Shown: one piece after another, positions 140 through 64,000 of the stretch | Layout: each line of letters starts with the position of its first letter | How positions within the stretch are numbered: position 1 is the stretch's first letter | Source of the DNA: Chondrilla cf. caribensis | Lineage: Eukaryota > Porifera > Demospongiae > Chondrillida > Chondrillidae | NCBI GenBank assembly: GCA_964020155.1 | Contig: OZ026549.1 | Coordinates: 2,787,633-2,851,632 of the forward strand | Direction: 5' to 3' | DNA: 64,000 nucleotides | Program-made: the position numbers and the translations under genes | The notes under the pieces: model-generated | What the model was told of the DNA's origin: nothing | The model's database searches: none | The model's input: only the letters and a program-made list of their open reading frames with translations

Positions 140-2509
140 GTAAATTACCCAATGTGACCATCGTGAGCGCTGAGCCAGGCACCACTGATGCAAGTATTGA
201 AATAGACATTCGTGTCCCCTCAGGTATTACTAGACCCATTGTAGGATATGAACGTCATGTCTTTGGAGTGACACTGCAGGGATGGTACAAAAATATTGAG
301 ACAAGTAGACAATATACATTCTCATCACTAGTCCCAGGTGCTAGGTACACAGTAGTAGTGCAGGGACTGAGTGGAGCTGCAGGTGATAGGAGTCAGCATG
401 TCACAAGAAGAGATGTCAAAACTACAGAAAAAAGTGAGGGCTATAGTAAATTGATAACTACGGATTATTTGGTAAGGTAGGTAGTCTGAAGTATTCTGTA
501 TAATATGGCATGGTTCATGCTATCACCTTTGAAATGCAACAATTATGATAATTATAATTTGGATTCTATCAATTTTTGAACCATCAGTTCCAAGGCACAT
601 AATTATACGTGTACATCATAGGTGTAGGAACACTTTCTGCTTTGGGGGGCTACCTCTGTAATAGAAATGTACTATAGGCCTACACGCAAAGAAACGCATA
701 GTAAACGCAAGTGAGAATTTGAAATGCTAGTAGATTATTTTGAAGAAAACAGTCAGTAGTTTTAACAGGGTGCCTTAGGGATAATTTGGAGAATCATGAT
801 GTAGATATATGACCTGTACCTGTAAACATTTATTACTTTATTTCCAACTTTTTAGTTATAGGCTAGAGGGATAAGCAATGGCTACCAATATATATTGATA
901 TAGCTAGGACACTTTTTACTGTAGTGACAAGGACATTATTGGGGGAGCTATAGACCTGTCATACAAAAAGTGGCCTAGAGTGGTCCCCCGGACTTGTTTT
1001 GGCACCATATTTGGTCTCCCTGGGACTCAATATACCATCACAAATGGTTAGGGTTAGGGTTAGGATTAGGATTAGGATTAGGGTAAGAGTTTAGGTTTAG
1101 GTTTAGGTTTAGGTTTAGGGTTGGGGTTTGGGTTAGGGTTAGGCACAAGTGGAGCATTTAGGACGTCGGAAACCTGTCTGCACGGACTGGTTTTGCTGCT
1201 ATTTCCGGTCCCGGGGACTGTTTTTGACAGCGGACCATATTTTTCGTGACCCCCTAGCCCCCATGGTTCCTACACCTATGTTAATAGTATATTTATTGTT
1301 TTCATCATTTCAGAACCATCTGCTCCAAGGTACCCCTGTATGATTAAAGTTAATACAGATGGAATTGAACTGAACTGGATACCTCCACTGGAACCCAACG
1401 GAGATATCCACTATCTCATCGAATATAATGATGGAAATAGAACCGTTTCAGTAAATACTTTGAGCAGGTCTACTTACTTCAATTTAACAGGACTACAGAG
1501 AGGAGTGACCTACAACATCACAGTGGTGGCAGTGAACTCAGCAGGAAGCAGTGATACTGGATCAGTTCTTAATTACACACATAACCCACAGAGTAAGTAG
1601 CTGTCAATATGTGATAAATTGAATTGGCAGTTGTTATGGTATAAAGTTACCCAATAGCATATTATAGATCATTATCAAACAACAACTCATGCACGAGTAT
1701 AGTAGTACCTACATAATTGAATAGTGAATAGTCCTTACTTTAATAAGCACTTGATATATTGCAATGTGCAGGCATGGCTTACTAGACAGTCCAAATTGGT
1801 GTTATATCATTTACATAGTATGTGTGTACACATGTGCATACACGTGTACATGTATGTATGTGAGTGCAATAGGTCTTCATTTACATTAGTTATAATTTTA
1901 ATTGTATTCACACAGTATCGACTCCTCCACCTACTACGAATATCCCCTCGGGTGAGTCTATTCAGACATTCTTTGTCTTATGTATGCACATCCTCAATTG
2001 TATCATTCTATTGTTACAGTATAATATGTAAGATATACAAAACCCTCATGATAATACATTTACCACTATCTTCCTTGAATTCAGCAAATGTAACAGCTGG
2101 TGTCATTGGAGCCATTGCAGTCCTACTGATGGTAGTGTCTATCATAGCAGTTATAATAGTGATAGCGATCATCTGCATAATCAAGTACAACAGAAGAAAA
2201 GGAGGACAGGAAGGCAATGGAGAACCTGACAATACAGAACATTACTACAGTGTAGCCACTGAAAATGCAGTACCAGAACCTCCTAGAATCCAAGGAGAAG
2301 TAGTCTATCAAGAATTGGATGTTGGCAAGATGGATGATGATGTGACAACCAACAAAAACTATCAAAAAATGAATGTCAGAACAATGGATCCGTTAAATTA
2401 TGTAGTGATGAACAAAAGAGGTTTTCTAGGATTGGATGCCAGCAAAAGGGACGATGATGTTATTTGCAGCAAAGATTATGAAGAATTGGCATGGACCCCA
2501 AAATGTTGA
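140..2509 (+). CDS. Receptor A: FN3-FN3-TM receptor, 5' partial, frameshifted tail
   Basis: 3' part of a type I membrane receptor. Exons: 140-433 (FN3-1), 1314-1592 (FN3-2), 1916-1951 (stalk), 2085-2509 (membrane segment and tail, stop TGA 2507-2509). Acceptors end in AG, donors are GT, and all introns are phase 1. The signal peptide and both Ig exons seen in copies B, C, E and F must lie upstream of the window. FN3-1 keeps YTFSSLVPGARYTVVVQGL; FN3-2 is canonical with LNWIPPLEPNG and GLQRGVTYNITVVAVNSAG. The last exon gives a hydrophobic helix (GVIGAIAVLLMVVSIIAVII) followed by a basic stop-transfer KYNRRKGG. The tail has YYSV, YQEL, YQKM, YVVM (a YxxM motif of PI3K-binding type) and YEEL. 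A 4-base insertion (about 2490-2493) relative to copy C shifts the frame and replaces the last 14 residues, including the final YASL motif, with AWTPKC. Ligand unknown. Gene model is firm; function is inferred from domains. Confidence 0.85.
578..595 (+). other. Possible relic of FN3-2 exon start in intron of A
   Basis: These 18 bases match the first bases of the FN3-2 exon of the paralogues with one mismatch (GAACCATCAG then TTCCAAGG for CTCCAAGG). There is no acceptor AG in front of it. It lies just upstream of a miniature element, about 720 bases before the real exon. It may be a leftover of a partial exon duplication; chance cannot be excluded at this length. Confidence 0.3.
617..1280. mobile_element. 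Miniature inverted-repeat element in intron of A
   Basis: The ends are exact inverted repeats: CATAGGTGTAGGAAC at 617-631 and its complement at 1266-1280. The interior of 664 bases has no ORF of note. It holds a telomere-like repeat tract and a block with GACGTCGGAAAC and CGGACCATATTTTTCGTGAC. That block recurs at 26905-27015 and, inverted, at about 28555-28650. The same terminal motif bounds another insertion at 37405-37782. It is absent from the equivalent intron of B, C, E and F. It looks like a non-autonomous DNA element; superfamily not recognised. Confidence 0.7.
1047..1145. repeat. Degenerate interstitial telomere-like repeats
   Basis: Successive hexamers GGTTAG, GGATTAG and GGTTTAG variants of TTAGGG run for about 100 bases inside the miniature element at 617-1280. 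A complementary tract (CCCTAA-like) lies at about 28655-28745, inside another copy of the same element block. The tract therefore moves with the element and is not a chromosome end. Confidence 0.7.
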
Positions 2510-3110
2510 ACAAAACCACCAACTATGCATCATTGAAGTGATAGTGTGTGAGAGGGCCATCCAGGGTATAATAGCAGACATCATAAAATGATACTATTAC
2601 CCTTTTTGCGTATGCATGCACATGCATGCACAAAAATATACGATGTGTATTTGGGATGTTGACAATAATTATTGAAAATGAACTATAGCATTGATATCAT
2701 ACACGAGTACAATGACATAGTGTCAATAGGGTCAATCCTGGATTATTCAAGCAAGATCTTAATGAAGACAGGAGTCCAGATTGGATAAGAATCAAATTAC
2801 AATTAATTTAGTATTTAGTATTTATTTAGTTTTTTAGGAATTGGATGACTAGGAGGTATATAATCACTGGTTGCCATCAAAATCAGACTTTGGCCTCCCA
2901 TGCAGCTGATAGAGATTTCGGTCTATTTTTAGCTGGTTCGGTGTAAATCCAGTGATATAATTCTTTGTATTCTATGGAAAGATTGTTCACTGCACAATAA
3001 TATATATTATAATAAGATGTAATATGAGGACCAATATAGTAAAAAATATTGGAGCTATATAATATATCCATAATAATATGATTTTTGAGGCTTTGGATTA
3101 AAAGGTAATA
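2510..3110. repeat. 3' flank of A with half a foldback element
   Basis: Bases 2510-2830 are homologous to the 3' flank of receptor C (26030-26300), so they duplicated with the gene. Bases 2836-2965 are one arm of the foldback element seen complete at 47425-47847 and 59110-59562, ending in CCAGTGATATAATTC. No gene seen. Confidence 0.6.
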
Positions 3111-3990
3111 CAGTGGAACCTCTGTAAACCAAACCCCCTCAGGATTCACAAAATGTTTGGTTTAGAGAGGTGTTCGGATTGCTGAGACATTGGTAGAAAA
3201 CGCTTAATATTGGCAATTTACATGCTCAGTCATATACCATTATTAATAAAAGGTTCACTACAAAAATAAAGATAAGCAGTTCATGACTTATCTAACACGC
3301 ATATGAATGAATCAAGGGTACTCTGTTTCTTTTGACATCTGAGCTTTGTTTCTATCAGACTTTCGAGGGCTTGAATATGTGGCAAATATCGCCCATCTTT
3401 TATCAATGCAAATGTCTTCAATTTTTGCACTGTCTTTAGAACTTCTTTGTATGTCATGTCACATACAGATTCTGTTTCAATTTCATCATTGTCATCTGAT
3501 TCAACTTCTGCTGTCTCATTGCTCTTAAATTGATCGACAAGTGCCCTTTCCCAGTTTTCAGAGTTGTCTTCAGTAGAAACATCATCATCAACGTGCTCAT
3601 CTAATTCTATTTGCAGTTCTTGAGCTAGCTCTGGAAGCCCTATGTCATCATCATTGTCGGCACTCTCATCTCTTGTGTATTCAACATCACTGCAGTTAAG
3701 AAAACCTGTTTCACAAAAGCATGTGACAATCGTGGATGATGCTGTTTCGGTCCATGATTGATCAAGGTTTGGGCAATGTTTAAGCTTGTTTAATCAGCTC
3801 GATCTTCTTCAGTAGAGGCAGTTCAACTCGGGGTCTTTTAGCACCTGGTAACTTTTCAGTCATTGTCTTATACACGTGTTTGACAGGGTTCAGATTGCAG
3901 AAGTCAAATTTCATACTGAACTCAGACTTGGGACGATCATAGCCGTTCAGTATTCGGAATTCAGAGGGTTTGGATTACGGAAGGGTCAAT
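3111..3990 (-). mobile_element. Internally deleted pogo/Tigger-type DNA transposon
   Basis: The left end starts CAGTGGAACCTCTGTAAACC after a TA (3109-3110). The right end is a decayed inverted copy (complement reads CTTCCGTAATCCAAACCC) followed by TA 3991-3992, as expected for TA-targeting elements. On the minus strand a short N-terminal reading frame begins near 3863 and reads MTEKLPGAKRPRVELPLLKK then IELIKQA, the usual start of Tigger/pogo-type DNA-binding regions. After an internal gap comes the C-terminal part (about 3760 down to 3286): WTETASSTIVTCFCETGF, an acidic stretch, and the ending KKQSTLDSFICVLDKS. The catalytic DDE core is missing, so the element is dead. The insertion interrupts an intergenic block that is uninterrupted near 48000 and 59710. 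Confidence 0.75.
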
Positions 3991-3992
3991 TA

Positions 3993-6920: not shown

Positions 6921-6930
6921 AATTCAAGGT

Positions 6931-7152: not shown

Positions 7153-10100
7153 ATGGAGAACATTGGAAAAGTCTATTTGAAGAGCATTCTACTCTGTATC
7201 CTTTCTTCAGTGGCCATTTCAGGTGATTTCAAGTTTCTTGTCAGAATTAATATCAACACTAACAGTTTGAGGTACTGCTTAGGAGGACGGCAAGACAGTT
7301 AAGCACATGGGACTATTGCTATACTGCTGGCATCATTCTTACTATTGTTTGGCAAACATAACTGCCTAAGGGTTGAAATCAGTAAACCGATTAGCAAACA
7401 CTACGACTACGTTCCCTGACGCTCTACTGAGTTATAATTACACAAAATAGCCGGTATAGGGTTACCGCATTGGGTGGCATTGATCTTTTCACAGTTCCTA
7501 TACTAATGCCGTCTCACGGGGCCGTCGGTAAAATAGGATGTAACCAGATTAGTGTGACATTCATACGTTTGGTGTACAGACCAAACAAAAATTAATACAA
7601 GGAGAGTTTGATTCCACGATTATTCCATCATAGCGTCGTTAGGGTGGACGAGCCTTATTTCGAGCACTGCCCAATTCCCAACAGCTGGCCTCTCACCGTA
7701 CGATTTTCAAGAAACTATCATTTATAGTTCGTATTCGTAATCCTCACACACCAGGTAAGACACAACATTCTTTAGTCTGCTCATTATTGACCGGATTAGG
7801 TTGAAAATCGACACGTTCGGAATTAAAGACTGTTTGGAATTCCCACCGCCTTCCTAATACTATACGTTTAGGCAATGACACCCTATTCCAGTACGAGATA
7901 ATGCAGTTCACACGCCCAGACAGAGTTCAATTTTTACGTATGCCGTAAGAGTTGTCCACTCACTCACCTACATAATATACGGCTGTACTGGGTACAATAC
8001 GTGGCCGTCGACTTAGTATCGATTATTAAGATGAAATCGAACGGCGATTTCGCTCCATCTCGTTTACACCAGTGGTCTCCTCTATTGTCTATGGTTTCAC
8101 CAAATCACACCATTAGCCACGATCACACGTGCTACATCTATGTCATGTGCGCGTGACGTCCATGCAAGTTCAAAGTGCAATTGGTAAACTGTAGGATGTT
8201 ATTTCACACTCTATAATCGGGCGTACGGGCGTTATCAATTACATTGTACAGTCTCGAATGAGCTATCAGTAGCCCGTCCAAATATCCGTCATACACACTG
8301 GCTCAAAATTTAACGATCTACAGCCAAGATTGCATCAGTTGCTCGTATTCCATCTTTTTGGCTGGTGATGAACTTAAATGGTCACCCAGACCACTACTAC
8401 CATCCTAACCGTATCTGTAGCCAAAATTATCTTTCAATATATTTCATTATTCAATGATTTATATTCAAACACATTCTTGCCAGGTTTAAACACACAAACA
8501 TTATCTGTTTGTTTTGTTTTTACAACTGTGTCCGAGAGTTACATATGTATATTATGTGATGTTTGAAAAAGCATTTCTCCCCCCTCTATGTATCAGGGAA
8601 TAGTCTAGTTACAATAGCCAGACCATCCCTATCAGGTACCTGTGGTGGAGTGGGGAAGGGACAGTCTAGCAAAACAAATGATTGTTTGCCACCTAAACTT
8701 TCACACCTACAGGGTATGACTTTCGAACAATCAGTAGTTGATAATAACCAAAAATGAATAATAATCAAAGTGGGAATAGGGCCAGGAGGCATCTACGTTA
8801 TAGGTACATGTCAGTGAGCGCATCAGGATATGTAAAAACTAACTGAATTATTCTCATTTACCTTATCAAAAGTTAAAAGAGATACTTATCTTAGCATAAA
8901 TATCTCGAAGGAATTATGAAGTTCTTCCATAAAGGTTGATTCCCCAAAAATAGGTCCATGATAGCAGAGATTTGTTCTGCAGAAAAAAACATAAGGATTA
9001 AGATGTCTACACTTGATTTTACATTAGGCATATAAAACCAGGCTGCCTATACTTTCATGTGTGAAGTGTACTACACGTGATTATTTTCCGTTCTCTCCTT
9101 TGGTTAAATTTTGACAAAATCCATGATCATCACAATAGGCTGTACTTAGGGCAACCTGTAGGAATGATATTGAAAAACAAATGGTAACTAATGGTATTAC
9201 AATATAATAATAATTAACAGTGGATATTGTATTCTGAATGGCTGCAGTGGTCCCATGTATGGTACATAACACAAGATGTGGAGACATCAAGTATTAGTGA
9301 TATACATGAACCAATCAAGTACAAAGATGTCAATAAATCCTTTGCAATTAGATATACAGTCACTTTTCAGGCAGGAATTTGGATGTGTAATATTAATATT
9401 GATATTGATGCATAACACAGCATGATATGGAATGTAACAATTTTATTACTACCGGTAAGTCAAAATTAATTAGGATTCATATGTGGTGACTGTAACAAAC
9501 TGCATCTACCAAAGTCAAATCCAATGAAACTATAATGAACATGCTGGAACCAAACTATTAATGCTTAATTAACTGTTGGTAATGTACATTTTCCCTCCTA
9601 GGCTCCCCTAAGGTAACTGTGGTGGTTGATGGCTACACAGTTAACTCCACTCTGTCCTCACCAGCTTCACTACCACTAGGAACAGCTCTTGTGTTGGTGT
9701 GTAGAGTCAGTGGAATACCACAGAGACAGATCAAATATAACTGGACATGCCCTGATGGTCCATGTGAACGTCCAGGATATGTGGGGAGAAAGGTTGTTAA
9801 CGACAGTATTCTAGCAGTCAATATAACTTCTGACAGTGATGGAGGAACATACACCTGTGAAGTATCAAGAGATGAGGCAGATGGGGGATACAGCCAAAAT
9901 TATACCCTCAATGTTTCAGGTCAATACACACAACAAACATGTGCAGAAAATAAGTGGTGAAATTCTGTTTTCACAGTCCTCAGGTATTTACAGTTTCACT
10001 ATGATTTTATGTAAACTGTTTTGGAAATAAACTGGAAACACACAATTCTTGGTATTCCAAAAACCCAAATTTGGAAAGTTAGTCATCTCCCCAAATTTGG

Positions 10101-11783
10101 GACACACACAAAACAAGCAACATTCATGTAAGATCAGAGGATTCTCTGGGAATACACATGTTACATACCCAAGCCAACTTTGACTATAAGTAGGTTGTTA
10201 TTCAGGTGCTTAGCAACTGGAATTTGTCTCAACATCCTTATCACCTCCCCAAATTTTCGCTGTTTCAAGGGAGAATTGGCACGAACATGTATGTTTACTG
10301 TTCAAACCTAATAAAAGTGATGAAACAGCTGAATATGAAGGTTGGGGCTTAATCAGAATTTAACCATCTAATTCCTAACATGTTAACAATGCATTCATGC
10401 ACAAAGATATTATATGCACATATCAAAAACATTTTTATACTTATACAAGTGTATATATGAAATGAATAGTCTTCTTATCGTTATAGGAGGACATGTTATC
10501 CACAGTTATGGAAGGCTTGTCCACCGGGAACATGTAATCACTAGAGAAGATCAGCTTCTACCACCTGGTGATACAGCAGGGCCTGGAAGAATGGACTGCA
10601 TAAGAACTGCACCAGAAACTGCTCGCTTTCGATTTTTCGGTGGCAAACCACCAAACAATTTAGTATATCAAAGTGATGATGATGGTGATCAAATGGCTAC
10701 TTTATTCTTCAACCGAGCTTACTTGTCAATGAACACTTTCATTGCAGAGTATTCCTGTCAGGATGATACGTATATTCTTTTCTATTTATCACCAGGTAAA
10801 AACTACTACTAATACTAGGTATTACTTACAATATGAAAACATTCAACAATTGCAATTACAGTATCAAGTGATATTGATTGTAATGTTTTATTATTGTTTT
10901 ATCACTCCCTGACAGGTACATTATCCAAAGTCACTATCAGGAGGGTTGTTCCAAGCACCACTGATGCTGAAATGGTCCTCAACAATATTCCTTTAGATAT
11001 TGATAGAACCATTGTAGGATATGAACGTCATGACCTTGGAGTGACACTGCAGGGAGAGTATGCAAATATTGCCAGACGCAGACAGCATACATTCTCATCA
11101 CTAGTCCCAGGTGCTAGGTACACAGTAGTAGTGCAGGGACTCCATGAATCAGCGAATGAAGGTCAAAGAAGTCAGCATGTCACAAGAAGAGATTTCAAAA
11201 CTAAAGTGAAAGGTCAGGGTAATACCACATTTTACTTGTCAATGAGCATATTTATCTCATACTAGTTGGTGCATAAAGAGTCTAATTTGGACTGAGTTAT
11301 AATTTTTTGTGTTAGAGTTGTTTGGAATGAGGGCATGGCACCACACAACTATTTATTACTTTCCAACATCAATTTATTGAGCATTTGTGCTGGACTTCTC
11401 TTCGCATGCCTCTTTAGCCACCACAACAAAGTATAACTGAAATATTTATTAAACAAAGTAATTTACATGTATACACATCCAATATATACTTACACATTAA
11501 TTATGCATACATATCTATGGATGTATTATATTATTATAAAATTATACATATGTACGTAATAGTACAACATTCACCTAACCATCTGTATTATGTACAAAAA
11601 ATCTTTCTTGGGGGGTGGAGGTAAGGGCACATTTGCCCTCCCTTCAGAGAAATTCCCCTCCCCCTTTCTGGCGATCCTATATTTACCTCACTTGAGATAC
11701 CTCATACAATTATACAGAGCACATCAGATATCTGTAGGTTTTAGGAAACAGATTTCCTGGGATAAATATATCCCACAATACAT

Positions 11784-11848: not shown

Positions 11849-13580
11849 CTATACACGTACACACACAATCACAATAATAAATCACACAAGTAATATCACA
11901 GTGATTACTTGATAAGAGAAAAAGCCATAACTCTATATAATATATAATATTTGTACATATACATGTATTTATTGCATTCTATGAATTCAGAACCATCGGC
12001 TCCAAGGTATCCCTGTATAATTGAGGATGATACAGATGGAATTGAACTGAACTGGATACCTCCACTAGAACCCAACGGAGATGTCTACTATCTCATTGAA
12101 TATAATGATGGAAGTGATACTGTTTCAGTAAATACCTCCAGTGAGTCTACTTACTTGAATTTAACAGGACTACAGAGAGGAGTGACCTACAACATCACAG
12201 TGGTGGCAGTGAACTCAGCAGGAAGGAGTGATACTGGAGCTGTTCTACAGAGTAAGTATCTGTCAATATGTGATAACTTGAATTGTCAGTTGTCACAGTA
12301 TAAAGTTACTCATATGATATAGATCATTGTCAAACAAGAACTCATGCACAGTATAATATAGCAGTACTTACATAAAGTGAATAGTCCTTAATTTAATTGG
12401 AAATGGATATGTTGCAATGTACAGACATGGGTTACTAGAGAATCCAAATTGGTGTGATTTACATAATTTTATGTGTGAATATATATGTGCATATGTGTAC
12501 ATGTATGCATGTGAGTGCATATTATGTGTATGCGAGTTCAATAGGTCTTCAATGGCATTAGTTTTAATTTTATTTGTATTCACACAGTATCCACTCCTCC
12601 AACTACTCAGAATAACCCCTCTGGTGAGTCTTTGAGACCTTTAACCTGTCCTATGTATGCATATACTCATTTATATCATTCTACTGTACATTACATTAGA
12701 TTATATATAATATAAAACACTCATGATAATACATTTACAGCTATCTTCCTTGAATTTAGCAAATGTAACAGCTGGTGTCATTGGAGCCATTGTTGTCCTA
12801 CTGATAGTAGTGTCTGCCATAGCAGTTATAATAGCGATAGTGATCATCTGCATAATCAAACGCAACAGAAGGAAAGGAGTATCAGAAGGCAATGGAAAGG
12901 CCGACAATACAGACCATTACTACAGTGTAGCCACTGAAAATACACAACCTCCTAGAATCCAAGGAGTCAACAAGAATGACGTGTATGACCAAGTTGAGCG
13001 TGGAGGCCTGAATGCTACGGACACTTATAAAGATCCTGATGCTGGGGTCAAAGTTCACAATAAAGTTACAAATGCTAAGACATCTGGAACTGGCAAACAA
13101 AATACAAATATCCCAGCAAAATATTCCAAACTACAGCAAAATGTACCCCAAGAACAACCTCAGTGGGAGAGTACCCCATCTGAGGGTCATTATGATGTAG
13201 CTGATAGCAGACCATACCAAGACAAATATGACATGATCGGCTCAGGAATGTACATCAATTCAGCTGCAGCAAAAAAAGAAAGTGAGAATGTACCCATAAC
13301 AAAACCAAGCACTAAACCATCAAAAAGCCTGCATCCCGAGGATATTATTGATGAAATGCCCAAGAATGGGAACGATCCTTCCGAGCTTTACATTCAGCCA
13401 AATAAAGTGAGGAAACATAATGAAAAATTGTGCGTTAATCATAATCAAGTTGATCCAGAGGAATTGTACACACAACCTGCCAAGAAAAAGAAGATAAAAA
13501 AACCACCTCCATATGCATCTAGACACAAAAGTGATGATCCAGAGGCACTCTATACTGCAGTTGATAAAGTCAAGAAATGA
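7153..13580 (+). CDS. Receptor B: Ig-Ig-FN3-FN3-TM receptor with long tyrosine tail
   Basis: Complete seven-exon gene, 703 residues: 7153-7222, 9602-9919, 10487-10795, 10916-11212, 11991-12251, 12588-12623, 12760-13580. All introns are phase 1 and the sum is an exact multiple of three. Residues 1-23 are a signal peptide (MENIGKVYLKSILLCILSSV). Residues 24-129 are Ig-1 (LVCRVSG, YNWTCPDGPC, DGGTYTCEV). Residues 130-232 are a divergent Ig-2 (DCIRTAP, AEYSCQDD). FN3-1 is 233-331 and FN3-2 332-418. The stalk is STPPTTQNNPSG, and the helix is about 436-463 followed by KRNRRKG. The roughly 240-residue tail has YYSV, YDQV, YSKL, HYDVA, YDMI, MYINS (Grb2-type YxN), PPPY (WW-domain type) and three repeats DPSELYIQP, DPEELYTQP, DPEALYTAV. 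AATAAA at 13808-13813. It is a likely cell-surface receptor signalling through phosphotyrosine; ligand unknown. Confidence 0.9.
7400..8350. promoter_or_regulatory. CpG-containing module in intron 1 of B
   Basis: This part of intron 1 is clearly richer in CG dinucleotides than the AT-rich flanks. It contains an E-box CACGTG (about 8126-8131) and a CRE-like TGACGTC (8154-8160), preceded by a small inverted repeat GAAATCG-5-CGATTTC. The same order occurs in intron 1 of F (TGACGTC 51593-51599) and G (63210-63216), and with changes in E (40974-40980). Candidate intronic enhancer or internal promoter; no direct evidence of activity. Confidence 0.4.
11787..11847. repeat. (CA)n microsatellite in intron 4 of B
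   Basis: About 60 bases of uninterrupted AC dinucleotides. The frame through it is an artefact of the repeat. Confidence 0.95.
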
Positions 13581-27015: not shown

Positions 27016-27756
27016 AGCCCATTGTGAAATTTGCAGTTGGATGTAATCCTCAACTATTTTGCACCATATGCATGCATGTGTATAAGCACCACCAATAATT
27101 GTGGAATATTATCACCACTATTCTCACAGCACTGGTAAAATCATGTAGGGTTCAGACTATATCCACATTGAATTAATCAGGGCATCATGCAGATCACGTG
27201 ATGAAATCCTAGTCAGTTAGTACCTACTTTGTCCGAGGAAATTTTTGGGTTAAAAGAAAAGGAAACACTTCTATGGCCAGAGGAAGTATGAACTGACCTA
27301 TAGGTATTGGACATATATGGATCCTGAAAACACACTGTAACAAAATTCAAGTACTACCAGAAGAACTATTGTCCAAGTGAGGAAGATGAGCTACATCAAA
27401 AGAATCTTTTTGATAAGTACTGTACTCTATATTATACTGACAACTAAAACTGCCTTTTCAGGTGAGTTCGACTTTTCAAACGATCGCTGACCTAAATCAC
27501 GGTGGGATAGTTAGTCAGGCCAGACCACAATATTACGGGGGGAAATGGTCCGAGACAGGGACAGTGAAAGGGGCCCCGCTAGCTGCCACCGTCTTCAAAT
27601 TCAATCTTTTAAGTCATAGCCTTGTCTATTCACTCCTTTAGTTCCGTTCATTCTCATCAATATTATGGCATTAGCCTATTTCTTGTGATTTGATAAATAC
27701 CTCATCTGGATATCACTTATACACCAATCTGATGACCGTACGGATGCCGATTCACG

Positions 27757-30450: not shown

Positions 30451-31367
30451 CTTACACACATCAAAAACATTTTTACTCTTATAAAAAATCTCATTATCAT
30501 TATAGGAGGACATGTTATCCACAGTTATGGGAGGCTTGTCCACTTTGAACATGTAATCACTAGTGAACTCAGCAGGAAGGAATGATACTGGACCAGTTCT
30601 GAATTACACATATAACCCACAGAGTATGTAACTAACATTACAATGAGCAGCTTTAGTAAATTTGTTAGCAAATTAATATATATGCATTTTTACCCGGGAT
30701 TATAAAACAGCGTAATATATGTGTATAGTGTGTTCATGGGTGTGTGTGCAATTACATAATATGTGTGTATGCGTGTGTAAGTGTGTGAGCGTGCGTGCGG
30801 CTGTGTGTGTGTGTGAGTGCGTGTGTGTATGCATACATGTGCCGACTTGTGCATATGTGCTGAAGGGTGAACAATCTGATGTAGCAACATGCTCAAATTG
30901 CTTACTACAGTTAACACCCGTCACAAAAACCTCCTACCTCATCACATATCTCTCCTACTGCAGTGATCATAGCAGTAGCTGTAGTGATCATCATGATCCT
31001 ACTGGTCATTATTACAATACTGAGTGCTTTGCTGGTACTGAAGAGGAAGAAACAACCACCTACAGTGCAGTGTGACCAGGAAAACATGTCAGAGATTCAT
31101 GACAAAGAGGCTGATATTGTGGAGACCAACCAAGACTATCAAGAATTAGATGTCAGCAAGATGGATGATGATGTGATGACCAGCAAAGACTATCAAAAAC
31201 TGAATGTCAGAAAGATGGATCCTCTGGGTGATAAGGTGATGACCATGAAAAACAATCTTGGATTAAATGCCAGCAAAATGAATGATGTTGTTATTTGCGA
31301 AGAAGACTATGAAGAATTAGTCACTGAAAAGATGGATGAGACCACCAATTATGAGTCGTTGAAGTGA

Positions 31368-43000: not shown

Positions 43001-45306
43001 AAGGTCAGGGTAATATCCCATTTTACTTGAGCATATTCATCTCATACTAGGTGTTGCGAAAAGTCTAATTTGGACTGAGTTACAATTTAGAGTTGTTTGA
43101 AATGAGGGCATAGCACCACACAACCATTTAATATTACTTTTAATTTCCAACATAGTTTTATTGAGCATTTGTGTTGGACTTCTCTTCATATGCCCCTTTA
43201 GTCCTTACACACCACAACAAAGTATAACTGAAATATTGAACAAAAATTTTTACATATATACACATCCAATTAATATATACTTACACATAAATTATGTATA
43301 CATATCTATGGATGTATTATATTCAATTTTACATATGTACGTAATAGCACAACATTCACCTAACCATCTGTATTATGTACACAAAAGTCTGTTTCGGGTG
43401 GAGCTAAGGCCACATTTGCCTTCCCTTCGAAGAAATTCCCCCTCCCCTTTCCGGAGATTCTATATTTACCTCCCTTGAAATACCTCACGCAATTATATGG
43501 AGTACATCAGATATATCTGTAGGTTTTAGGGAACAGATTTCCTGGGATGAATATGGTCCCACAATACAAGTACTACATAATAATACTATAATATAATTAT
43601 CTACACATAATACTACGAATGTGTGCCCAAACACACATACACACACCATCACATTATAAATCGCACAAATAATATCACAGTGATTACTTAACAACACTTT
43701 ATTACTTTCCAACATCAATTTATTGGGAATTTGTGCTTGTCTTCTCTTTCATATGCCCCTTTAGCCCCCACACACCATAACAAAGTAAAACTGAAATATA
43801 GAACAAAATAATCTACATGTATACACGTTTACTTAATAATTGCACTTAAACATTAATTACATTATATATTTATGGCTGCATTATGTATTATACATAATAT
43901 GTACATAATGCGTAGGACTTTCACCTAGCCATCTGTATATGTACACAAAAACCTTTTTGAGAGTGGATGTCACATTTTGCTTCTCTTCAGAGAATTTCCC
44001 CCTTCCCCTTCTGGAGATTCAATACTTACCCCCCTTGACATACCTCATACAATTATTCAGAACACATCAGATATCTGTAGGTTTTAGGAAACAGACTTTC
44101 TGGGATGAATATGGTCCCACGCATGCACACATGCACACATACTACAAATGTGTGCACAAATACACGTACACACACACACCATCACAATATAAATCACACA
44201 ATTAATATCACAGTGATTACTTGATAAGAAAAGAGACTTAACTCTATATAGCATCCGTTACCATAGAAACAGTACTTCGCGCCCTTGGGACTCGGTATTT
44301 TATATGTCATAATGCCCTCGGGCCCATGTCTTAACCACTAAATAATATATTAATAACATTTGTACATAATATATATGTACATGACATACATTTGTTGCTT
44401 TCTATGGATTCAGAACCATCAGCTCCAAGGTATCCCTGTATAATTGGAGATGATACAGATGGAATTGAACTAAACTGGATACCTCCACTGGAACTCAACG
44501 GAGATGTCTACTATCTCATTGAATATAAAGTTGGAAATAGAACTGTTTTCGTATATACCTCCAGTGAGTCTACTTACTTGAATTTAAGAGGACTACAGAG
44601 AGGAGTGACCTACAACCTCACAGTGGTGGCAGTGAACTCAGCAGGAAGGAGTGATACTGGAACAGTTCTGAATTACACACATAGCCCACAGAGTAAGTAG
44701 CTAACATTACAATGAGCAGTTTTAGTAAAGTTGTATATATGTGCGACAGTGTGTTCACGGGTGTGTGTACAAGTGCATGTGTGTTTGTACATATTATTTG
44801 AAGGATGAACAATCTGATGTAGCAACATGCTCAAATTTCTTACTACAGTTAACACCCCATCACAAACATCTCCTACCTCATCACAAAACACTCCTACTGC
44901 AGTGATCATAGTTGTAGCTGTAGTGATCATCGTGATCCTACTGGTCATTATTACAATACTGAGTGTTTTGCTGGTACTGAAATGGAAGAAACAACCACCC
45001 ACAGTGAAGTGTGACAAGGTTAACATGTCAGAGATTTATGATGGAGTGGATGATATAGTGAAGACCAACCAAGAGTATGAAGAAGTGGATGTCAGCAAGA
45101 TGGATGATAATGTGATGATCAGCAAAGACTATCAAAAACTGAATATCAGAAAGATGGATCCTCTGGGTGATACGATGATGACCATGAAAAGCAATCTTGG
45201 ATTAAATGCCAGCAAAAAGAATGAAGCTGTTATTTGCGAAGAAGACTATGAAGAAATAGACACTGAAAAGATGGACGAGACCACCCAATATGCTTCATTG
45301 AAGTGA
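40030..45306 (+). CDS. Receptor E: Ig-Ig-FN3-FN3-TM receptor with ITAM-like tail
   Basis: Complete, six exons, 577 residues: 40030-40099, 41389-41706, 42286-42597, 42707-43003, 44414-44692, 44849-45306; all introns phase 1. The signal peptide is MENTGKVYLMSILLCINFSA. Ig-1 is residues 24-129, Ig-2 130-233, FN3-1 234-332, FN3-2 333-425. Unlike A, B, C and F, the stalk (NTPSQTSPTSSQNTPTA) is fused to the membrane exon, as in D. The helix is about 444-470, ending LKWKKQ. The tail has YDGV, YEEV, YQKL, YEEI and YASL; YEEI and YASL are ten residues apart (ITAM-like). The YxxM of A and C is absent. The 5' half resembles B and F, the 3' half C and D, so E looks recombinant. AATAAA at 45622-45627. Confidence 0.9.
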
Positions 45307-50804: not shown

Positions 50805-53800
50805 ATGGAGAACATTGGAAAAGTCTATTTGATGAGTATTCTACTCTGTATCATTTCTTCAGCTGCCATTTCAGGTGATTTCAAGTTTCTTGTCAGAATT
50901 AATATCAACACTAACAGTTAGTCTAAAGGTTTGAGGTACACATAATAGCCGGTAAAAGGTTACTGTATTGGGTGGCATTGATCTTTTCACAGTTCCTATA
51001 CGAATGCCGTATCACGGAGCCGTCGGTAAAATTGAATGTAACCAGATTAGTGTGACATTCATACGTTTGGTGTACAGACCAAAAAAATTGATACAAGGAG
51101 AGTTTGATTCCACAATTATTTCATCATAGCGTCGTTAAGGTAGAACAGTACTTAATTCCTAACAGCTTGTCTCTCACCGTATATTATTTTCACCCCAGGT
51201 ATGACACAGCATTCTTTGGTCTGCTCATTGACCGGATTAGGTGGAAAATCGACATGTTCGGAATTAACGACTGTTTGAAATTACCACCACCTTCCTAAAA
51301 CTATACGTTTAGGCAATGACACCTATATTCCAGTACGAGATAATGCAGTTCACAGGCGCAGACAAAGTTCATCTTTACGTATGTTGTAAGAGCTGTCCCC
51401 TTACTCACCTACATAATATACGGCTGTACTGGGTATAGTGGCCGTCGTCTTATTATTCATTATTACGATGAAATCGAACGGCGATTTCGCTCCATCTCGT
51501 TCACACCACAGTGGTTTCCTCTATTGTCTATGGTTTCACCAGATCGCACCATTATCCATGACGACACGTGCTACATCTATGTCATGTGCGCGTGACGTCC
51601 ATGCAAGTTCAAAGTGCAATTGGTACTGTACTGTAGGATGTTATTTCACACTCTATAATAGGATGTATGGGCGTTATCAATTACATTGTACAGTCTCGAC
51701 TGAGCTATCAGCAGCCTATCCAAATATCCGTCATACACACTGGCTCAAAATCCTACAGTCTACAGCCAAGATTGCAATAAGTTGCTGGTATTCCATCTTT
51801 TAGCTCGTGATGAGCTTTAAATGGTCACCCAGACCACTACTATCATCCTAACCATATATGTAGTCACAATTATCTTTCAATATATTTCATACTCAAACTC
51901 ACATTCTTGCCAGGTTTGAACACACAAACATTATCTGTTTGTTTTGTTTTTGCACCTGTGTCCGAGAGTTACATATGTATACGTGATGATTGTAGAAATT
52001 CTTCAACATGCTAGATCGATTAAAATGTGTTTTATCTTTGGACAGATAACGCAAGTCACGATTTTTCGTCAAAAACAATTATTCAATTCCAATTGAATAA
52101 TTGTTTTTGATGAAAAATCGTGATATATTACATTATATGTCCAAAGATAAAACACATCTTAATTGTATATTATGTGATGTTTGAATAATAAAGCATTCCT
52201 CCCCCCTCTATGTATCAGGGAATAGTTACAATAGCTAGACCATCCCTATCAGGTACCTGTGGTTGAATGGGGAAGGGATGGTCTAGCAAAACAAATGATT
52301 GTTTCCCACCTGAACATTCACACCTACAGGGTATGACTTTCGAGCAATCAATAGTTGATAATAATCCAAAATGAATAATAATCAAAGTGGGGATAGGGTC
52401 GGGAGGCATTTATATTATAGGTACATGTCAGTAAGTGCATGAGGATATTTAAAAACTTGCGGAATTGATCTCATTTACCTTATCAGAAGTTGAGCATAAA
52501 TATCTTGCAGGAATTATTGCAGAACATTCTTCCATAAAGGTTGATAAATTGCTGAGTAACTTGACTAAACTGCTCAATAGCCATGTTTGCTAGTCTGTTA
52601 ATCACGACAGTGAAGACATGTGGACAGATGATTTGTACATTTTTGGTCTCCATCTTAATATTTGGCAGTAGGGTTTTGACTACAATGGACTTGCCATGTC
52701 CATTTGGTTGGAAAACAATCGAATCATTCCCCAAAAATCGCTCAACAATAGCAGAGATCTGATCTGTTTTGCAGAAAACACATAAGGATTGAGATGTCTG
52801 CACTTGATTTCACATTAGGCATATAAAACCAGGCTGCCTATACTTTCATGTGTGATGTGTACTACACTTAGTTATTTTCTGTTCTCTCCTTTGGCAATAT
52901 TTTGACAAAATCTACACATCATCACAATAGGCTGTTCTTAGGGAAACCTGTAGGAATGACATTGAAAAACAAATTTATGGTAACAATGGCAACTAATGGT
53001 TTTACAGTATAATGAAGAATGACAGTGGATATTGCATTCTGAATGGCTGCAGTGGTCCCATGTATGGTATATAACACAAGATGTGGGGTCAGTATTAGTG
53101 CTATACATGACACAAGCAAGTACATCAATGCCAATAAATCCTTACTGCAATTAGATATACAGTCACTTTACAGGCAGGAAGTTGGATGTGCAATATTAAT
53201 ATTGATATTGATGCATAAGACGGCATGGTATGGAATGTAACAATTACATTACTAAGTCAAAATTAATAAGGATTCATATGTGGTAACTGTAACCCTAACT
53301 ACATATACCAAAATCAAATACAATGAAAATATAATGAACATGCTGTAACCAAACTATTAATGCTTAATTCACTGTTTGTAATGTACATTTTCCCCTAGTC
53401 TCCCCTGAGGTAACTGTGGTGGTTGATGGCTACACAGTTGACTCCACTCAGTCCTCACCAGCTTCACTACCACTAGGAACAGCTCTTGTGTTGGTGTGTA
53501 GAGTCAGTGGAATACCACAGAGACAGATCAAATATGACTGGACATGTCCTCATGGTCCATGTGAACGTCCAAGATATGTGGGGAGAAAGGTTGTCAACGG
53601 CAGTATTCTAGCAGTCAATATAACTTCTGTCAGTGATGGAGGAACATACACCTGTGGTGTATCAAGAGATGAGGCAGATGGGGGATACAGCCAAAATTAT
53701 ACCCTCAATGTTTCAGGTCAATACACACAACAAACATGCACCGAAAATAAGTGGTGAAATTCTGTTTTCACAGTCCTCAGGTATTACAGTTTCACTATGA

Positions 53801-56800
53801 TTTTATGTCAACTGTTTTGGAAATTAACAGGAAACACACAATTCTTGGCATGCCAAAACCCCAAATTTGGAGAGTTAGTCATCTCCCCTAAATTTGGGAC
53901 ATACACAAAACAAGCAACATTCATGTAAGATCAGAAGATTCTCTGGGAATGCACATGTTACATACCCAAGCCAACTTTGATCATAAGTAGGTTGTTATTC
54001 AGATGCTTAGCAACTGGAATTTGTTCAAAACATGTCTCAACATCCTTATCACCTCCCTAAATGTCCACTGTTTCAAGTTAGAATTGGCATGAACATGTAT
54101 GTTTACTGTTGAAACCTAATAAAAATGATGAAACAGCTGAATATGAAGGTTGGGGCTTAATCAGAATTTAACTATCTAATTCATAACATGTTAACAATTC
54201 AGTCATGCACATAAAGATATTATATGCACATGTAAAATCATTTTATACTTATACAAGTGTATGAAATGACAAATCTTATTATCGTTATAGGAGGACATGT
54301 TATCCACAGTTATGGGAGGCTTGTCCACAGGACACATGTAATCACTAGAGGAGATCATCTTCTACCACCTGGTGATGGAACAGGGCCTGGAAGAATGGAC
54401 TGCATAAGAACTGCACCAGAAAATGCTAGTTTTCGATTTTTCGGTGGAGATGAACCACCAAACAATTTACTAAATCAAAGTGATAATGATGGTGATCAAA
54501 TGGCTACTTTATTCTTCAACCGAGCTTACTTGACAATGAACAATTTCACTGCAGAGTATTCCTGTCAGGATGATACATATATTCTTTTCTATCTATCACC
54601 AGGTAATAACTACTATAATTAATACTAGGTATTACTTACAATATGAAAGCATTCAACAATTGCAATAACAGCATCAAGTGATATCAATTCTAACGCTTCT
54701 TTACTGTTTCATCACTCCCTGACAGGTACATTACCCAATGTCACTATCATGAGGGCTGTGACAAACACCACTGATGTGAGAATAGTCCTCAATGATATTC
54801 CCTCAGAGATTCATAGAACCATTGTAGGATATGAACGTCATGACCTTGGAGTGACACTGCAGGGAGAGTATGCAAATATTGAGAGACGTACACAGCATAC
54901 ATTCTCATCACTAGTCCCAGGTGCTAGGTACACAGTAGTAGTACAGGGACTGATTGGACGTGCGAATGAAGGTCAGAGAAGTCAGCATGTCACAAGAAGA
55001 GATTTCACAACTAAAGAGAAAGGTCAGGGTGATATCACATTTTATTTGTCATATTTATCTTATACTAGGTGGTGCATAAAGAGTCTAATTTGGACTGAGT
55101 TACAATTTAGAGTTGTTTGGAATGAGGGCATGGCACCACACAACTATTTATTACTTTCCAACATCAATTTATTGAGCATTTGTGCTGGACTTCTCTTCGT
55201 ATGCCCCTTTAGCCACCACACACCAGAACAAGGTATAACTGAAATATAGAACAAAATAATTTACATATATACACATCCAATTTATACTGACACGTTAATT
55301 ATGCATACATATATCTATGGATGTATTATATCGAATTTTACATATTATATATGTACGTAATAGCACAACATTCACCTAGCCATCTGTATTATGTACACAA
55401 TAATCTTTTTCGGGTGGAGGTGAGGCCACATTTGCCTTCCCTTCAGAGAAATCCCCCCTCCCCCATTCTGGAGATTCAATATTTACCCCTGTTGAAATAC
55501 CTCATACAATTATAGAGAGCACATTAGATATCTGTAGGTTGTAGGGAACAGATTTCCAGGGATGAATATGGTCCCACAATACAAGTACTACATAATAATA
55601 CTATAATACAATTATATAATATCTACACATATACTATATGTATAGATATACTATACTACGATTGTGTGCCCAAACGCATGTACACACACACCCTCACATT
55701 ATAAATCACAAAATAATATCACAGTGATTACTTAACAAGAGAAAAGCAATAACTCCATATATAATAATTATTATAATATTTTATGCACGTACATATATTT
55801 ATTGCCTTCTATGGATTCAGAACCATCTGCTCCAAGGTATCCCGTGATAATTGGAGATGATACAGATGGAATTGAACTAAACTGGATACCTCCACTGGAA
55901 CCCAATGGAGATGTCTACTATCTCATTGAATATAATGATGGAAATAGAACTGTTTCAGTAAACACCTCGAGTGAGTCTACTTACTTGAATTTAACAGGAC
56001 TACAGAGAGGAGTGACCTACAACATCACAGTGGTGGCAGTGAACTCAGCAGGAAGGGATGATACTGGAACAGTTCTTAATTACACACACATCCCACAGAG
56101 TGAGTAGCTAACAATCCAATGAGCAGTTTTAGTAAAGTTGTAAGCAATTTTATATCTATGCAGAGTGAGTATCTGTCACTATGTGATAACCTGAACTGTC
56201 AATTGTCATGTTATAAATTATATTATATTATAGTTATCCATACCATAAGGATCATTGTCATACAACAGTTGATGCACAGTATATAGTAGTCTTTTACATA
56301 ATTGATGGAAATAGAAAATTGCTCTTAACTAAATAATCAATCTTAAGCAATTTATATGTACATGTACATGTGTGATATCATTTACATAATATTATGTGTG
56401 CATACATGTATGCATGTGAGTGCAATAGATCTTCATTGACATTAATTTTAATTCTAATTGCATTCACACAGTATCCACTCCTCCACCTACTCAGAATAAA
56501 ACCTCTGGTGAGTCTTTGCATGTGTACATGTATGCTTGTGAGTGCATTTGGTCTCCTTTGACATTAGTTTCAATTTTAATTGTATTCACACAGTATCCAC
56601 GCCTCTACCTACTGAGAATAACCCCTCTGATGAGTAATCCAAACCTATAACTTATCCTATGATTCTGTAGGACACATCTTCAATTATATCATTCTGTTGT
56701 ATAATACATAATACATACAAAACCCACATGATAACACATTTACTGCAATCTTCCTTGAATTTAGCAAATGTAACAGCTGGTGTCATTGGAGCCATTGCAG

Positions 56801-57588
56801 TCCTACTGATAGTAGGGTCTACCATAGCAGTTATAATAGTGATAGTGATCGTCTGCATAATTAAGCGCAACAGAAAAAAAAGAGTACCAGAAGGCGATGG
56901 AAAAGGCAAAAATACAGACCATTACTACAGTTTAGCCACTGAAAATGCACAACCTCCTAGAATCCAAGGAGTTAACAAGAATGATATTATTGTGTATGAC
57001 CAAGTTGAGGGTGGAGGCCTGAACGGTACTGACACTTATGAAGATCCTGATGCTGGGGTCAAAGTTACAAATGCCCAGACATCTGGAAATGACAAACAGA
57101 ATACAAATATCCCAGGAAAATATTCCAAACACCAGCAAAATATACCCCAAGAACCACCTCAGTGGGAGAATACCCCATCTGATGGTCATTATGATGTAGC
57201 CGATAGCAGACCATACCAAGACAAATATTACATGATCGGCTCAGGAATGTACGTTAATTCAGCTGCAGCAAAAGAAGAAAGTGAAGATGTACCCATAACT
57301 CAACCAAACACTAAACCATCAAAAAGCAAGCATCCCGAGGATATTAATGATGAAACGCCAAAGAATGGGAACGATCCTTCCGAGCTTTACACCCAGCCAA
57401 ATAAAGCGAGGAAACATAATGAAGAATTGAATGTTAATCATGATCAAGTTGATCCAGAGGAATTGTATACACAACCTGCCAAGAAAAAGAAGATAAAGAA
57501 ACCACCTCCATATGCAGCAGGACACAAAAGAGATGATCCAGAGGCACTCTATACTGCAGTTGATAAAGTCAAGAAAAGAAATAACTAA
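50805..57588 (+). CDS. Receptor F: Ig-Ig-FN3-FN3-TM receptor with long tyrosine tail
   Basis: Complete, seven exons, 711 residues: 50805-50874, 53399-53716, 54291-54602, 54726-55022, 55821-56099, 56472-56507, 56765-57588; all introns phase 1. The signal peptide is MENIGKVYLMSILLCIISSA. Ig-1 is residues 24-129 (here starting SPEVTVVV), Ig-2 130-233, FN3-1 234-332, FN3-2 333-425; the stalk is STPPPTQNKTSG and the helix about 443-470. The tail is the B class: YYSL, YDQV, HYDVA, YYMI, MYVNS (YxN), two ELYTQP repeats, ALYTAV and PPPY. The YSKL of B is YSKH here, losing that YxxL motif. A second stalk exon (56594-56629) has a dead donor. Intron 5 starts like that of D and E and then continues like that of B and C. 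AATAAA at 57653-57658. Confidence 0.9.
52022..52160. mobile_element. Hairpin miniature element in intron 1 of F
   Basis: Outer arms 52022-52044 and 52138-52160 match at 22 of 23 bases (TGTGTTTTATCTTTGGACA). Inner arms of 33 bases (52056-52088 and 52091-52123) are inverted copies around CC. It is present at the same place in G (63643-63776) and absent from B, so it was inserted in the common ancestor of F and G. Confidence 0.7.
52483..52803 (-). pseudogene. Helicase-like fragment, antisense in intron 1 of F
   Basis: Open frame of 106 codons. Its reading DQISAIVERFLGNDSIVFQP then NGHGKSIVVKTLLP resembles the Q-motif region and motif I of RecQ/DEAD-type helicases (Q..AI..F..G.D.......P.G.GKS......LP). 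It is followed by VQIICPHVFTVVINRLANMA, where I(V)-x-P-L normally follows. Other helicase motifs are absent. In B the same intron has an internal deletion of about 170 bases (near 8950) through this frame. A scrap of a gene or element, not functional. Confidence 0.4.
56594..56629 (+). pseudogene. Duplicated stalk exon of F with dead splice donor
   Basis: A 36-base copy of the stalk exon (STPLPTENNPS) with an intact polypyrimidine tract and AG (56592-56593), about 90 bases after the used one. The donor is AT (56630-56631) where the others have GT. Reading on gives a stop at 56635-56637. Confidence 0.8.
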
Positions 57589-59562: not shown

Positions 59563-59768
59563 TGTATTCTTTGGAAACATTGTTCACTACACAATATATA
59601 TAATAAGATGTAATATGAGTATAGTAATATAGTAATCCAATATAGTAAAAATATTGGAGCTATAATATATCAATAATATTATGATTTTGAAGCTTTGGAT
59701 TAAAAGGTAATACAAAATTTATTAATCTTGTCTTGCTCTCATTTTCTTGCTCTCTTATTAATGTTTAG

Positions 59769-59910
59769 TTGCACAGAAGCACTGATTCCTGAACCCAACC
59801 CTTTCATCCCCTCGAGCAATTACATAACCCTTAGAGTTCAGCAACATTTGCAAGGCAACAACTGCACAATGGGCAATCAGTTAATTGTCAAAATGTGCAT
59901 GTGTGTACAT
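59769..59910 (+). pseudogene. Exon-like relic related to the small cysteine-rich gene
   Basis: Preceded by a long pyrimidine tract and TTTAG, followed by GTGAGT. One frame reads CTEALIPEPNPFIPSSNYIT then LRVQQHLQGNNCTMGNQLIV and KMC. NCTMGNQLIVKMC resembles NCRGNQFVTKFCC of the genes at 35038 and 58177. The copy at 48046-48191 is frameshifted and the one near 4010-4080 is partial, so none is likely functional. Confidence 0.35.
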
Positions 59911-62414: not shown

Positions 62415-62484
62415 ATGGAGAACACTGGAAAAGTCTATTTGATGAGTATTCTTCTCTGTATCATTTATTCAGCTGCCATTTCAG
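62415..62484 (+). CDS. Receptor G: signal-peptide exon, rest beyond window
   Basis: 70 bases, phase 1, ATG to G before GTGATT. It encodes MENTGKVYLMSILLCIIYSA and AIS, the signal peptide of the B/E/F class. The following 1.5 kb matches intron 1 of F, including the CpG-containing module (TGACGTC 63210-63216) and the hairpin element. The Ig exons should follow after 64000. A second in-frame ATG lies six bases upstream. The usual promoter is absent, so expression is uncertain. Confidence 0.75.
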
Positions 62485-63642: not shown

Positions 63643-63776
63643 AAGATGTGTTTTATCTATGGACAGATAACGCAAGTCACAATTTTTCATCAAAAACAAT
63701 TATTCAATTCCAATTGAATAATTGTTTTTGATGAAAAATCGTGATACATTATATGTCCAAAGATAAAACACATCTT
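63643..63776. mobile_element. Hairpin miniature element in intron 1 of G
   Basis: Same element and site as 52022-52160 in F, with a few substitutions that slightly unpair the arms. Confidence 0.7.
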
Positions 63777-64000
63777 AATGTATATGTGATGTTTGAATAA
63801 TAAAGCATTCCTCCCCCCTCTATGTATCAGGGAATAGTCTAGTTACAATAGCTAGACCATCCCTATCAGGTACCTGTGGTTGAATGGGGAAGGGACGGTC
63901 TAGCAAAACAAATGATTGTTTGCCACCTAAACTTTCACACCTACAGGGTATGACTTTCGATCAATTTAGTTGATAATAATGAAAAATGAATAATAATCAA

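Follow-up and report, generated by a model that had tools for sequence, protein, structure and literature searches.

The window, the whole 64,000-nucleotide stretch C4:2787633-2851632 of a 137 Mb genome (37 contigs), was found to cover part of an array of same-strand genes, about 0.8 Mb long, that encode predicted single-pass receptors with Ig-FN3 ectodomains and tyrosine-rich tails. One interchangeable pool of predicted ectodomains is carried on three classes of tail: T2 and T3 end in an immunoreceptor tyrosine-based activation motif (ITAM) and T1 is without it. Paired receptors are laid out in this way; that the tails signal in opposite directions is hypothetical. The genes are probably, at somewhat better than even confidence, germline-diversified recognition receptors of a demosponge, organized as in paired immune receptors into an ITAM arm and a T1 arm. 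The original prediction had described a tandem cluster of receptors with ITAM-like tails; the tail classes on shared ectodomains and the size of the array were absent from it.

The genome was searched with the tail exon of copy C (76 candidates scored, E up to 0.001), and 55 matches were obtained, all on the + strand of contig C4 at 2.490-3.236 Mb. Frames at these matches were sorted by script into T1 (21), T2 (11), T3 (19) and unlabelled fragments (4); three of those labelled T2 (2544953, 2883932 and 3034646) are T3 fragments by eye, and the four unlabelled frames include 3185004, by eye a T3 tail with ITAM. T1 is a long tail with 13-14 tyrosines in 18 of 21 frames; T2 joins a T1-like helix to the ITAM tail, and T3 joins a different helix to the same tail. 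Genes of the three classes are interleaved along the array, the order T1-T2-T3 occurring three times (labels partly by eye).

The C-terminal motif of T2 and T3 is YEEL-x10-YASLK, a wide-gap ITAM, with several single YxxL/M motifs upstream of the pair. The pattern YxxL/I-x6-12-YxxL/I was present in 25 of 30 T2/T3 frames (20 of the 23 tails of at least 95 residues) and in none of the 21 T1 frames; 24 of the 25 have a gap of x10 and one has x12. Shuffled T2/T3 tails gave an ITAM of spacing 6-12 in 1.6% (mean; maximum 3.9%), and its origin by chance was therefore rejected; the 23 longer tails hold 3.61 YxxL/I motifs per tail vs 0.58 after shuffling. Six of 102 columns show no variation among 27 complete ITAM tails; these include both tyrosines (Y1 and Y2) and the Leu at +3 of Y2, the tails having been selected on a YxxL(K/R)-like C terminus, a criterion biased towards Y2 and the second Leu. 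Position +3 of Y1 is Leu in 26 tails and Ile in one, with a variable codon (TTA, TTG). The ratio of nonsynonymous to synonymous substitutions (dN/dS) was 0.54 (0.34-0.79) for the last 60 residues of 26 ITAM tails, 0.41 (no interval) for their last 25 columns and 0.49 (0.39-0.62; n = 17) for T1 tails; the tails are under purifying selection (dN/dS about 0.5). Because of the motif frequency, the invariant columns and the tail dN/dS, the predicted ITAM is read as maintained. Fifteen proteins were matched with the tail of copy E; ten were fetched, on contigs other than the window's, and seven of these have the ITAM. The serial YxxL/I motifs claimed for copies A, C, D and E were recovered; C, D and E end in YxxL/I-x10-YxxL and A holds serial motifs only.

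The strict pattern of the immunoreceptor tyrosine-based inhibition motif (ITIM), [SILV]xYxx[LIV], was found in 17 of 21 T1 frames vs 4 of 30 T2/T3 frames. T1 is distinguished by the absent ITAM and by IVYDQV; since a looser ITIM pattern is common to T1 and T2/T3, calling T1 inhibitory would be a guess.

Two Ig-like domains had been predicted in the ectodomain. The first was confirmed by Pfam in copy B, where Ig1 passed the cut-offs (in parentheses) of Ig_3 with 34.5 bits (30), Ig_2 with 28.2 (27) and I-set with 24.5 (23.7). The second, here termed domain 2, gave no Ig match: no Pfam family in nine members scanned, no match to PDB sequences below E 0.8 (one at E 0.83), and a probability of 0.6% against Ig1 by hhalign (shallow alignments); on these results it was rejected as a proven Ig domain. 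The structure prediction proposed for it was run with AlphaFold and gave a model too poor to support a fold search (predicted local distance difference test 50; 8 sequences). Two Cys and the start GGxVxHSxGRL are kept in aligned relatives, the first Val being Ile in one; domain 2 could be an Ig domain that has diverged, or another kind of domain. FN3b was above the Pfam cut-off in both copies scanned and FN3a below it in both (20.9 and 24.8 of 25 bits). Sorting of ectodomains with tails was rejected, identity within and between tail classes being about equal: Ig1 0.852/0.851, domain 2 0.724/0.746, FN3a 0.765/0.750, FN3b 0.851/0.859.

Pairwise dN/dS was highest in domain 2 (1.20; dN > dS in 78 of 105 pairs), followed by FN3a (0.96), Ig1 (0.68), FN3b (0.54) and T1 tails (0.49; dN > dS in 0 of 28 pairs); by codon bootstrap the interval of domain 2 (0.85-1.64) was clear of that of T1 (0.38-0.63). 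Matches were dropped when they began beyond query position 6 or stopped short of 90% of the query, and four stop-containing exons were left out (domain 2 2758138, FN3b 3213127, T1 2738913, T2 2789716). Single-omega values were 0.87 (domain 2), 0.85 (FN3a), 0.73 (Ig1), 0.41 (FN3b) and 0.49 (T1). Models M1a and M2a were fitted with self-written code checked by simulations; twice the log-likelihood gain of M2a was 48 (domain 2), 45 (FN3a), 31 (Ig1), 15 (FN3b; 14.8) and 0.9 (T1), with three, four, six and one sites of posterior > 0.9 in domain 2, FN3a, Ig1 and FN3b, respectively (the three of domain 2 being columns 14, 50 and 52); sites are listed for T1 too, though its test is not significant. 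Maxima in simulations (12 runs each, domain 2 and FN3a) were 3.7 on one tree and 11.8 (domain 2) or 14.6 (FN3a) with one recombination breakpoint; a single breakpoint was thus rejected as cause of the values of 48 and 45. The FN3b value of 14.8 is not clear of this control. The simulations covered domain 2 and FN3a; barring gene conversion far in excess of the modelled amount, a few sites under positive selection are therefore present in these two domains.

Domain 2 gave at least 150 matches in the genome (173 candidates, 150 scored), at least 63 of them at C4 2.416-3.233 Mb, all on the + strand, and at least 87 elsewhere (split counted by hand from the list), in clusters on C4, C6 and C2 at 31-51% identity; member counts are from a six-frame search and are lower bounds. 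At C4:2416308-2472684 ten domain-2 matches form five pairs about 2.2-2.6 kb apart (38-52% identity), a subfamily whose genes may hold domain 2 twice. Legible units numbered 22 (including one lone FN3b-like fragment) over 184 kb and 80 kb of the array; of these, 12 have every domain exon and the tail open and 10 are incomplete or broken; the array therefore grows and decays by duplication (birth-and-death turnover). A sample of a second cluster (C4 435-443.5 kb) showed matching architecture and a short tail ending VYQELDVNKMDDTKQYATMK.

Two proteins matched full-length E: P0001 (JGI, 44%) and P0002 (A0AA96MNW2, Halisarca dujardinii, 39-40%); the database held 5.8 billion proteins, and 8000 candidates were scored here and in the profile search, which gave 31 matches, adding tail and ectodomain frames on ENA contigs and two titins. 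P0001 is a continuous frame of 457 residues on a 1,511-base contig that crosses the junctions from signal peptide through Ig1, domain 2 and FN3a to FN3b, and would suit a spliced transcript. P0002 has a homologous ectodomain and a T1-like tail; its tail is matched by T1 tails (median local score 105.5; 0 of 2000 shuffles) and not by T3 tails, and it is nearer the second cluster (pieces 47-68% identical) than the window (27-58%). Its UniRef name, 'Insulin-like protein receptor', looks misleading (Pfam: Ig and fn3, no kinase). The mitochondrial COI, on a contig of 19,283 bases, translates under code 4, with TGA read as Trp; this is the code of non-bilaterian animals such as sponges and cnidarians; ATA and AGA stand at positions which we take to be Ile and Arg. 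From the Halisarca relative and code 4 the host is concluded to be a sponge, probably a demosponge akin to Halisarca, in agreement with the sponge proposed originally from the letters. Ten T1 tails on a contig of 1,036,821 bases were 99.6-100% identical to C4 tails (one being the window's own), 11 on contigs of 1,519,069 and 726,687 bases were 81-95% identical to C4, and four from others 74-84%; judged by these identities, the divergent contigs carry a distinct gene set and derive from another haplotype, another individual or another species.

Candidate partners of the tails were sought among 89 SH2 matches in the genome. On C17 two SH2 exons lie about 2 kb apart; among solved structures the C-terminal one is best matched by SYK (E 4e-29; ZAP-70 3e-23), and the N-terminal one alike by SYK (7e-19) and ZAP-70 (1e-18), SHP-2 being next (1e-15). 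Pieces of SH2, SH2 and protein tyrosine phosphatase (PTP) exons stand in this order on one strand at two places on C12; at the fetched site the N-terminal SH2 exon is best matched by SHP-2 (3e-32), the second SH2 is present only in part, and a PTP exon is best matched by SHP-1 (2e-22) with receptor PTPs close (9e-21). By these matches the genome has a predicted SHP-like tandem-SH2 phosphatase gene. Syk-related proteins are mentioned in sponges in a passage of PMC9486129. The ITAM-like tails of the original prediction are thus upheld by motif, spacing and conservation and by the presence of putative SYK-like tandem SH2 exons. Elsewhere, dense SH2 matches at C14:1.55-2.14 Mb, many sharing an open frame with a tyrosine-kinase match, possibly form an expanded SH2-kinase array, and many tyrosine-phosphatase domain matches are clustered at C6:4.3-4.85 Mb and on C17 and C18.

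Within the window, one exon set was found repeated on the + strand by tblastn with exon translations (Table 1), in the order signal peptide, Ig1, domain 2, FN3a, FN3b, short stalk (a separate exon in most genes), helix and tail. Copies B, C, E and F are complete, with 6-7 exons, phase-1 GT-AG borders and spliced open frames of 704, 585, 578 and 712 codons with stop, respectively; the signal-peptide exons found, of two types (SP1 and SP2), end in TCAG followed by GT, and intact domain exons are of phase 1 at both ends. Of copy A, no signal-peptide, Ig1 or domain-2 exon was found upstream, including the 2.8 kb back to the preceding unit's tail, and its frame is broken near the end; copy D retains a signal-peptide exon and a T3 tail without breaks, but of its ectodomain only remnants were found; copy G is a signal-peptide exon alone, the next tail being beyond the window and broken. 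The seven same-strand copies first described stand as tandem units, but only four are complete; likewise, the tandem cluster placed at 140..64000 is real, but the array continues far past it and lies mostly outside the window.

Table 1. Exons and remnants of receptor copies A to G (positions in the window).
Feature	Position	Strand	Remark
Copy A FN3a exon	140..433	+	copy A 5'-truncated
Copy A FN3b exon	1314..1592	+	
Copy A stalk exon	1916..1951	+	
Copy A helix + T2 tail	2085..2509	+	serial YxxL/M; frame breaks before second ITAM tyrosine
Copy B signal-peptide exon (SP1)	7153..7222	+	
Copy B Ig1 exon	9602..9919	+	Pfam
Copy B domain-2 exon (originally 'Ig-2')	10487..10795	+	no Ig match found
Copy B FN3a exon	10916..11212	+	
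Copy B FN3b exon	11991..12251	+	
Copy B stalk exon	12588..12623	+	
Copy B helix + T1 long tail	12760..13580	+	13 tyrosines, no ITAM, no ITIM pattern
Copy C signal-peptide exon (SP2)	19141..19210	+	
Copy C Ig1 exon	21989..22306	+	
Copy C domain-2 exon	22414..22731	+	
Copy C FN3a exon	22876..23175	+	
Copy C FN3b exon	24444..24704	+	
Copy C stalk exon	25418..25453	+	
Copy C helix + T2 tail	25578..26029	+	ITAM YEELDPKMLDETTNYASL
Copy D signal-peptide exon (SP2)	27386..27461	+	
Copy D remnant	30505..30601	+	domain-2 start adjoining FN3b end, out of frame
Copy D open frame, helix + T3 tail	30915..31367	+	ITAM YEELVTEKMDETTNYESL
Copy E signal-peptide exon (SP1)	40030..40099	+	
Copy E Ig1 exon	41389..41706	+	
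Copy E domain-2 exon	42286..42597	+	
Copy E FN3a exon	42707..43003	+	
Copy E FN3b exon	44414..44692	+	
Copy E stalk, helix + T3 tail	44849..45306	+	ITAM YEEIDTEKMDETTQYASL
Copy F signal-peptide exon (SP1)	50805..50874	+	
Copy F Ig1 exon	53399..53716	+	
Copy F domain-2 exon	54291..54602	+	
Copy F FN3a exon	54726..55022	+	
Copy F FN3b exon	55821..56099	+	
Copy F stalk exon	56472..56507	+	
Copy F helix + T1 long tail	56765..57588	+	ITIM-like IVYDQV
Copy G signal-peptide exon (SP1)	62415..62484	+	no ectodomain found downstream

Interstitial telomere-type repeats lie inside the array, (GGTTAG) x16 at 1046-1143 and (CCTAAC) x15 at 28653-28744. Two open frames between units, 14442-15185 (-; 247 aa) and 3281-3793 (-; 170 aa), are without Pfam match, and scans of the window with Rfam (gathering threshold) and for tRNA gave no match.

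In vertebrate paired receptors (KIR, LILR, FcR) a single tandem cluster combines common ectodomains with tails of activating and of inhibitory type; the sponge array is similar by layout, with the ITAM in the receptor's own tail, as in FcgammaRIIa, and not in an adaptor. Sponge Ig receptor tyrosine kinases such as Geodia GCRTK have a cytoplasmic tyrosine kinase domain, whereas no kinase match was found in the tail exons scanned with Pfam (B, C, D and E). Halisarca P0002 shares the ectodomain and the T1-like tail with the array and, unlike it, is without ITAM.

The premise that ITAM and ITIM are classically vertebrate is too narrow, such motifs being reported in Hydractinia Alr, Botryllus FcoR and oyster CgIgIT2 in passages of PMC12065747 and PMC11999971. 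Botryllus FcoR is described in passages of PMC12065747 as type I receptors of the immunoglobulin superfamily (IgSF), a multigene family with 53 loci in the fuhc locus of about 800 kb, the architecture being V-type Ig, sushi and two C2 Ig domains and the tails holding ITIM, hemITAM and core Y-x-x-I/L/V motifs. As far as these passages go, the sponge family is likewise an IgSF type I multigene family with tyrosine-motif tails and a comparable locus size; unlike FcoR it has one Ig, domain 2, two FN3 and two-tyrosine ITAMs, and the ectodomain exons of copy B gave Ig and fn3 only and no sushi domain (Pfam). In passages of PMC11067881 the Hydractinia Alr genes form a cluster, encode single-pass IgSF receptors whose ectodomains are polymorphic, and include many probable pseudogenes; the sponge genes resemble Alr1/Alr2 so described in clustering, single-pass IgSF build, diverse ectodomains and broken copies, but allorecognition, a proven role in Hydractinia, is a possible one in the sponge. 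No Alr protein was among the 31 profile-search matches (8000 candidates scored; no direct comparison made). Oyster CgIgIT2, in passages of PMC11999971, is a single receptor with five Ig domains, a transmembrane segment and a classic ITAM; it is like the sponge genes an invertebrate Ig receptor with ITAM and, unlike them, not part of a paired array. No report of a sponge ITAM or Ig-FN3 receptor array was found among the titles and abstract openings listed from the open-licence literature, and the parts seen of two sponge immune-repertoire papers (PMC12909245, PMC12723187) give Ig/FN3 domain counts and no such array. As far as these searches reach, the kind of receptor is known from Hydractinia, Botryllus and oyster, and the family, its architecture and its host phylum are new.

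The receptors might work as follows. The pool of Ig1, domain 2, FN3a and FN3b is joined to two kinds of tail; domain 2 and FN3a, in which change is selectively favoured, would determine which ligand is bound. A ligand would cluster the ectodomains, upon which a Src-type kinase would phosphorylate both tyrosines of YEEL-x10-YASL in T2/T3; the doubly phosphorylated tail would recruit a Syk-type tandem-SH2 kinase and form the activating arm. In T1 the ITIM-like IVYDQV and the LYxxP/V tyrosines would bind an SHP-type phosphatase and SH2 adaptors as a restraining or modulating arm, and the balance of T1 and T2/T3 would decide on acceptance or rejection of tissue or microbes. A recognition receptor family, as originally proposed, is supported by the ectodomain diversification, the array turnover and the haplotype differences. 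A bolder version is put forward tentatively, as something rather to be doubted than believed: this would be the first sponge histocompatibility complex of paired receptors, with perhaps more than 100 Ig-FN3 genes genome-wide, the selected ectodomains of the main array being freely combined with ITAM (Syk) or ITIM-like multi-tyrosine (SHP) tails; sponges would already possess the activating/inhibitory logic of natural killer (NK) cells, and domain 2 would represent a novel fold for recognition, hypervariable in sequence.

Several observations weigh against paired recognition receptors with an ITAM arm. Textbook ITAM spacing is x6-8, and x10 is wider; the tail of the second cluster, YxxL-x10-YxxM, has ITAM-like spacing and is not a strict ITAM; and the Halisarca relative lacks the ITAM altogether. 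With Thr allowed at -2, the ITIM pattern is found in 18 of 21 T1 and 28 of 30 T2/T3 frames and does not separate the classes, and copy B, a T1 gene, has no ITIM pattern. Visual inspection of the adjacent 6 kb did not reveal a kinase domain for the Syk-like gene. For domain 2 as a whole dN/dS is not significantly above 1 (single-omega 0.87), few sites pass the posterior of 0.9 in domain 2 and FN3a, and more than one breakpoint could raise the site-test values further. The surveyed units alone (3 T2 and 4 T3 exons) gave dN/dS intervals of 0.34-1.30 and 0.41-1.30, so that neutrality is possible for them, and the broken units include A, D and G of the window.

The strongest competitor is recognition of microbes or symbionts instead of allorecognition: the receptors would bind bacterial ligands, their diversity having arisen in an arms race with microbes; it is quite possible, short of probable. 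Positive selection in the ectodomain and birth-and-death turnover suit it equally, and the ITAM-bearing IgSF receptor CgIgIT2 recognises Vibrio and lipopolysaccharide (passages of PMC11999971); the size and haplotype divergence of the array resemble the fuhc and Alr complexes as described in the passages cited, but these observations fit both readings. The genes may also encode homophilic Ig-FN3 adhesion molecules whose tails anchor or signal for adhesion without an immune decision. Adhesion receptors share the arrangement of Ig followed by FN3, structures matched by the FN3 part include NCAM, Dscam, DCC and titin, and part of the review PMC11999971 sums up sponge IgSF as adhesion molecules; yet for housekeeping adhesion one would hardly expect 55 tail matches in one array, conserved ITAM pairs and an ectodomain under positive selection, and this explanation is considered unlikely.

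Somewhat less likely still are serial YxxL/I motifs acting as endocytic sorting signals (AP-2, YxxPhi) without ITAM signalling. YxxPhi and YxxL patterns overlap, and single YxxL/M motifs precede the terminal pair; a sorting signal, however, needs no fixed pair, whereas here the gap is nearly constant and the pair supplies three of the six invariant columns, and the putative SYK-like tandem SH2 exons also speak against it. That most units are relics of a recent expansion with little function is the least likely of these explanations: nearly half of the surveyed units lack some exons or have breaks, but the tails are under purifying selection, and the remaining units keep all domain exons open with their splice sites.

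Sponges reject foreign tissue. Passages of a 2025 review (PMC12065747) state that the proteins proposed for allorecognition in sponges, cnidarians and ascidians are not conserved between these groups, and that ITIM/ITAM motifs connect the systems of ascidians, cnidarians and mammals. A sponge family that combines conserved ITAMs with a second class of tail and diversified ectodomains, and has SYK- and SHP-like partners in its genome, would extend this shared signalling logic to an earlier animal branch; the array offers a concrete locus for genotyping in fusion assays, and the tail motifs offer concrete peptides for binding tests.

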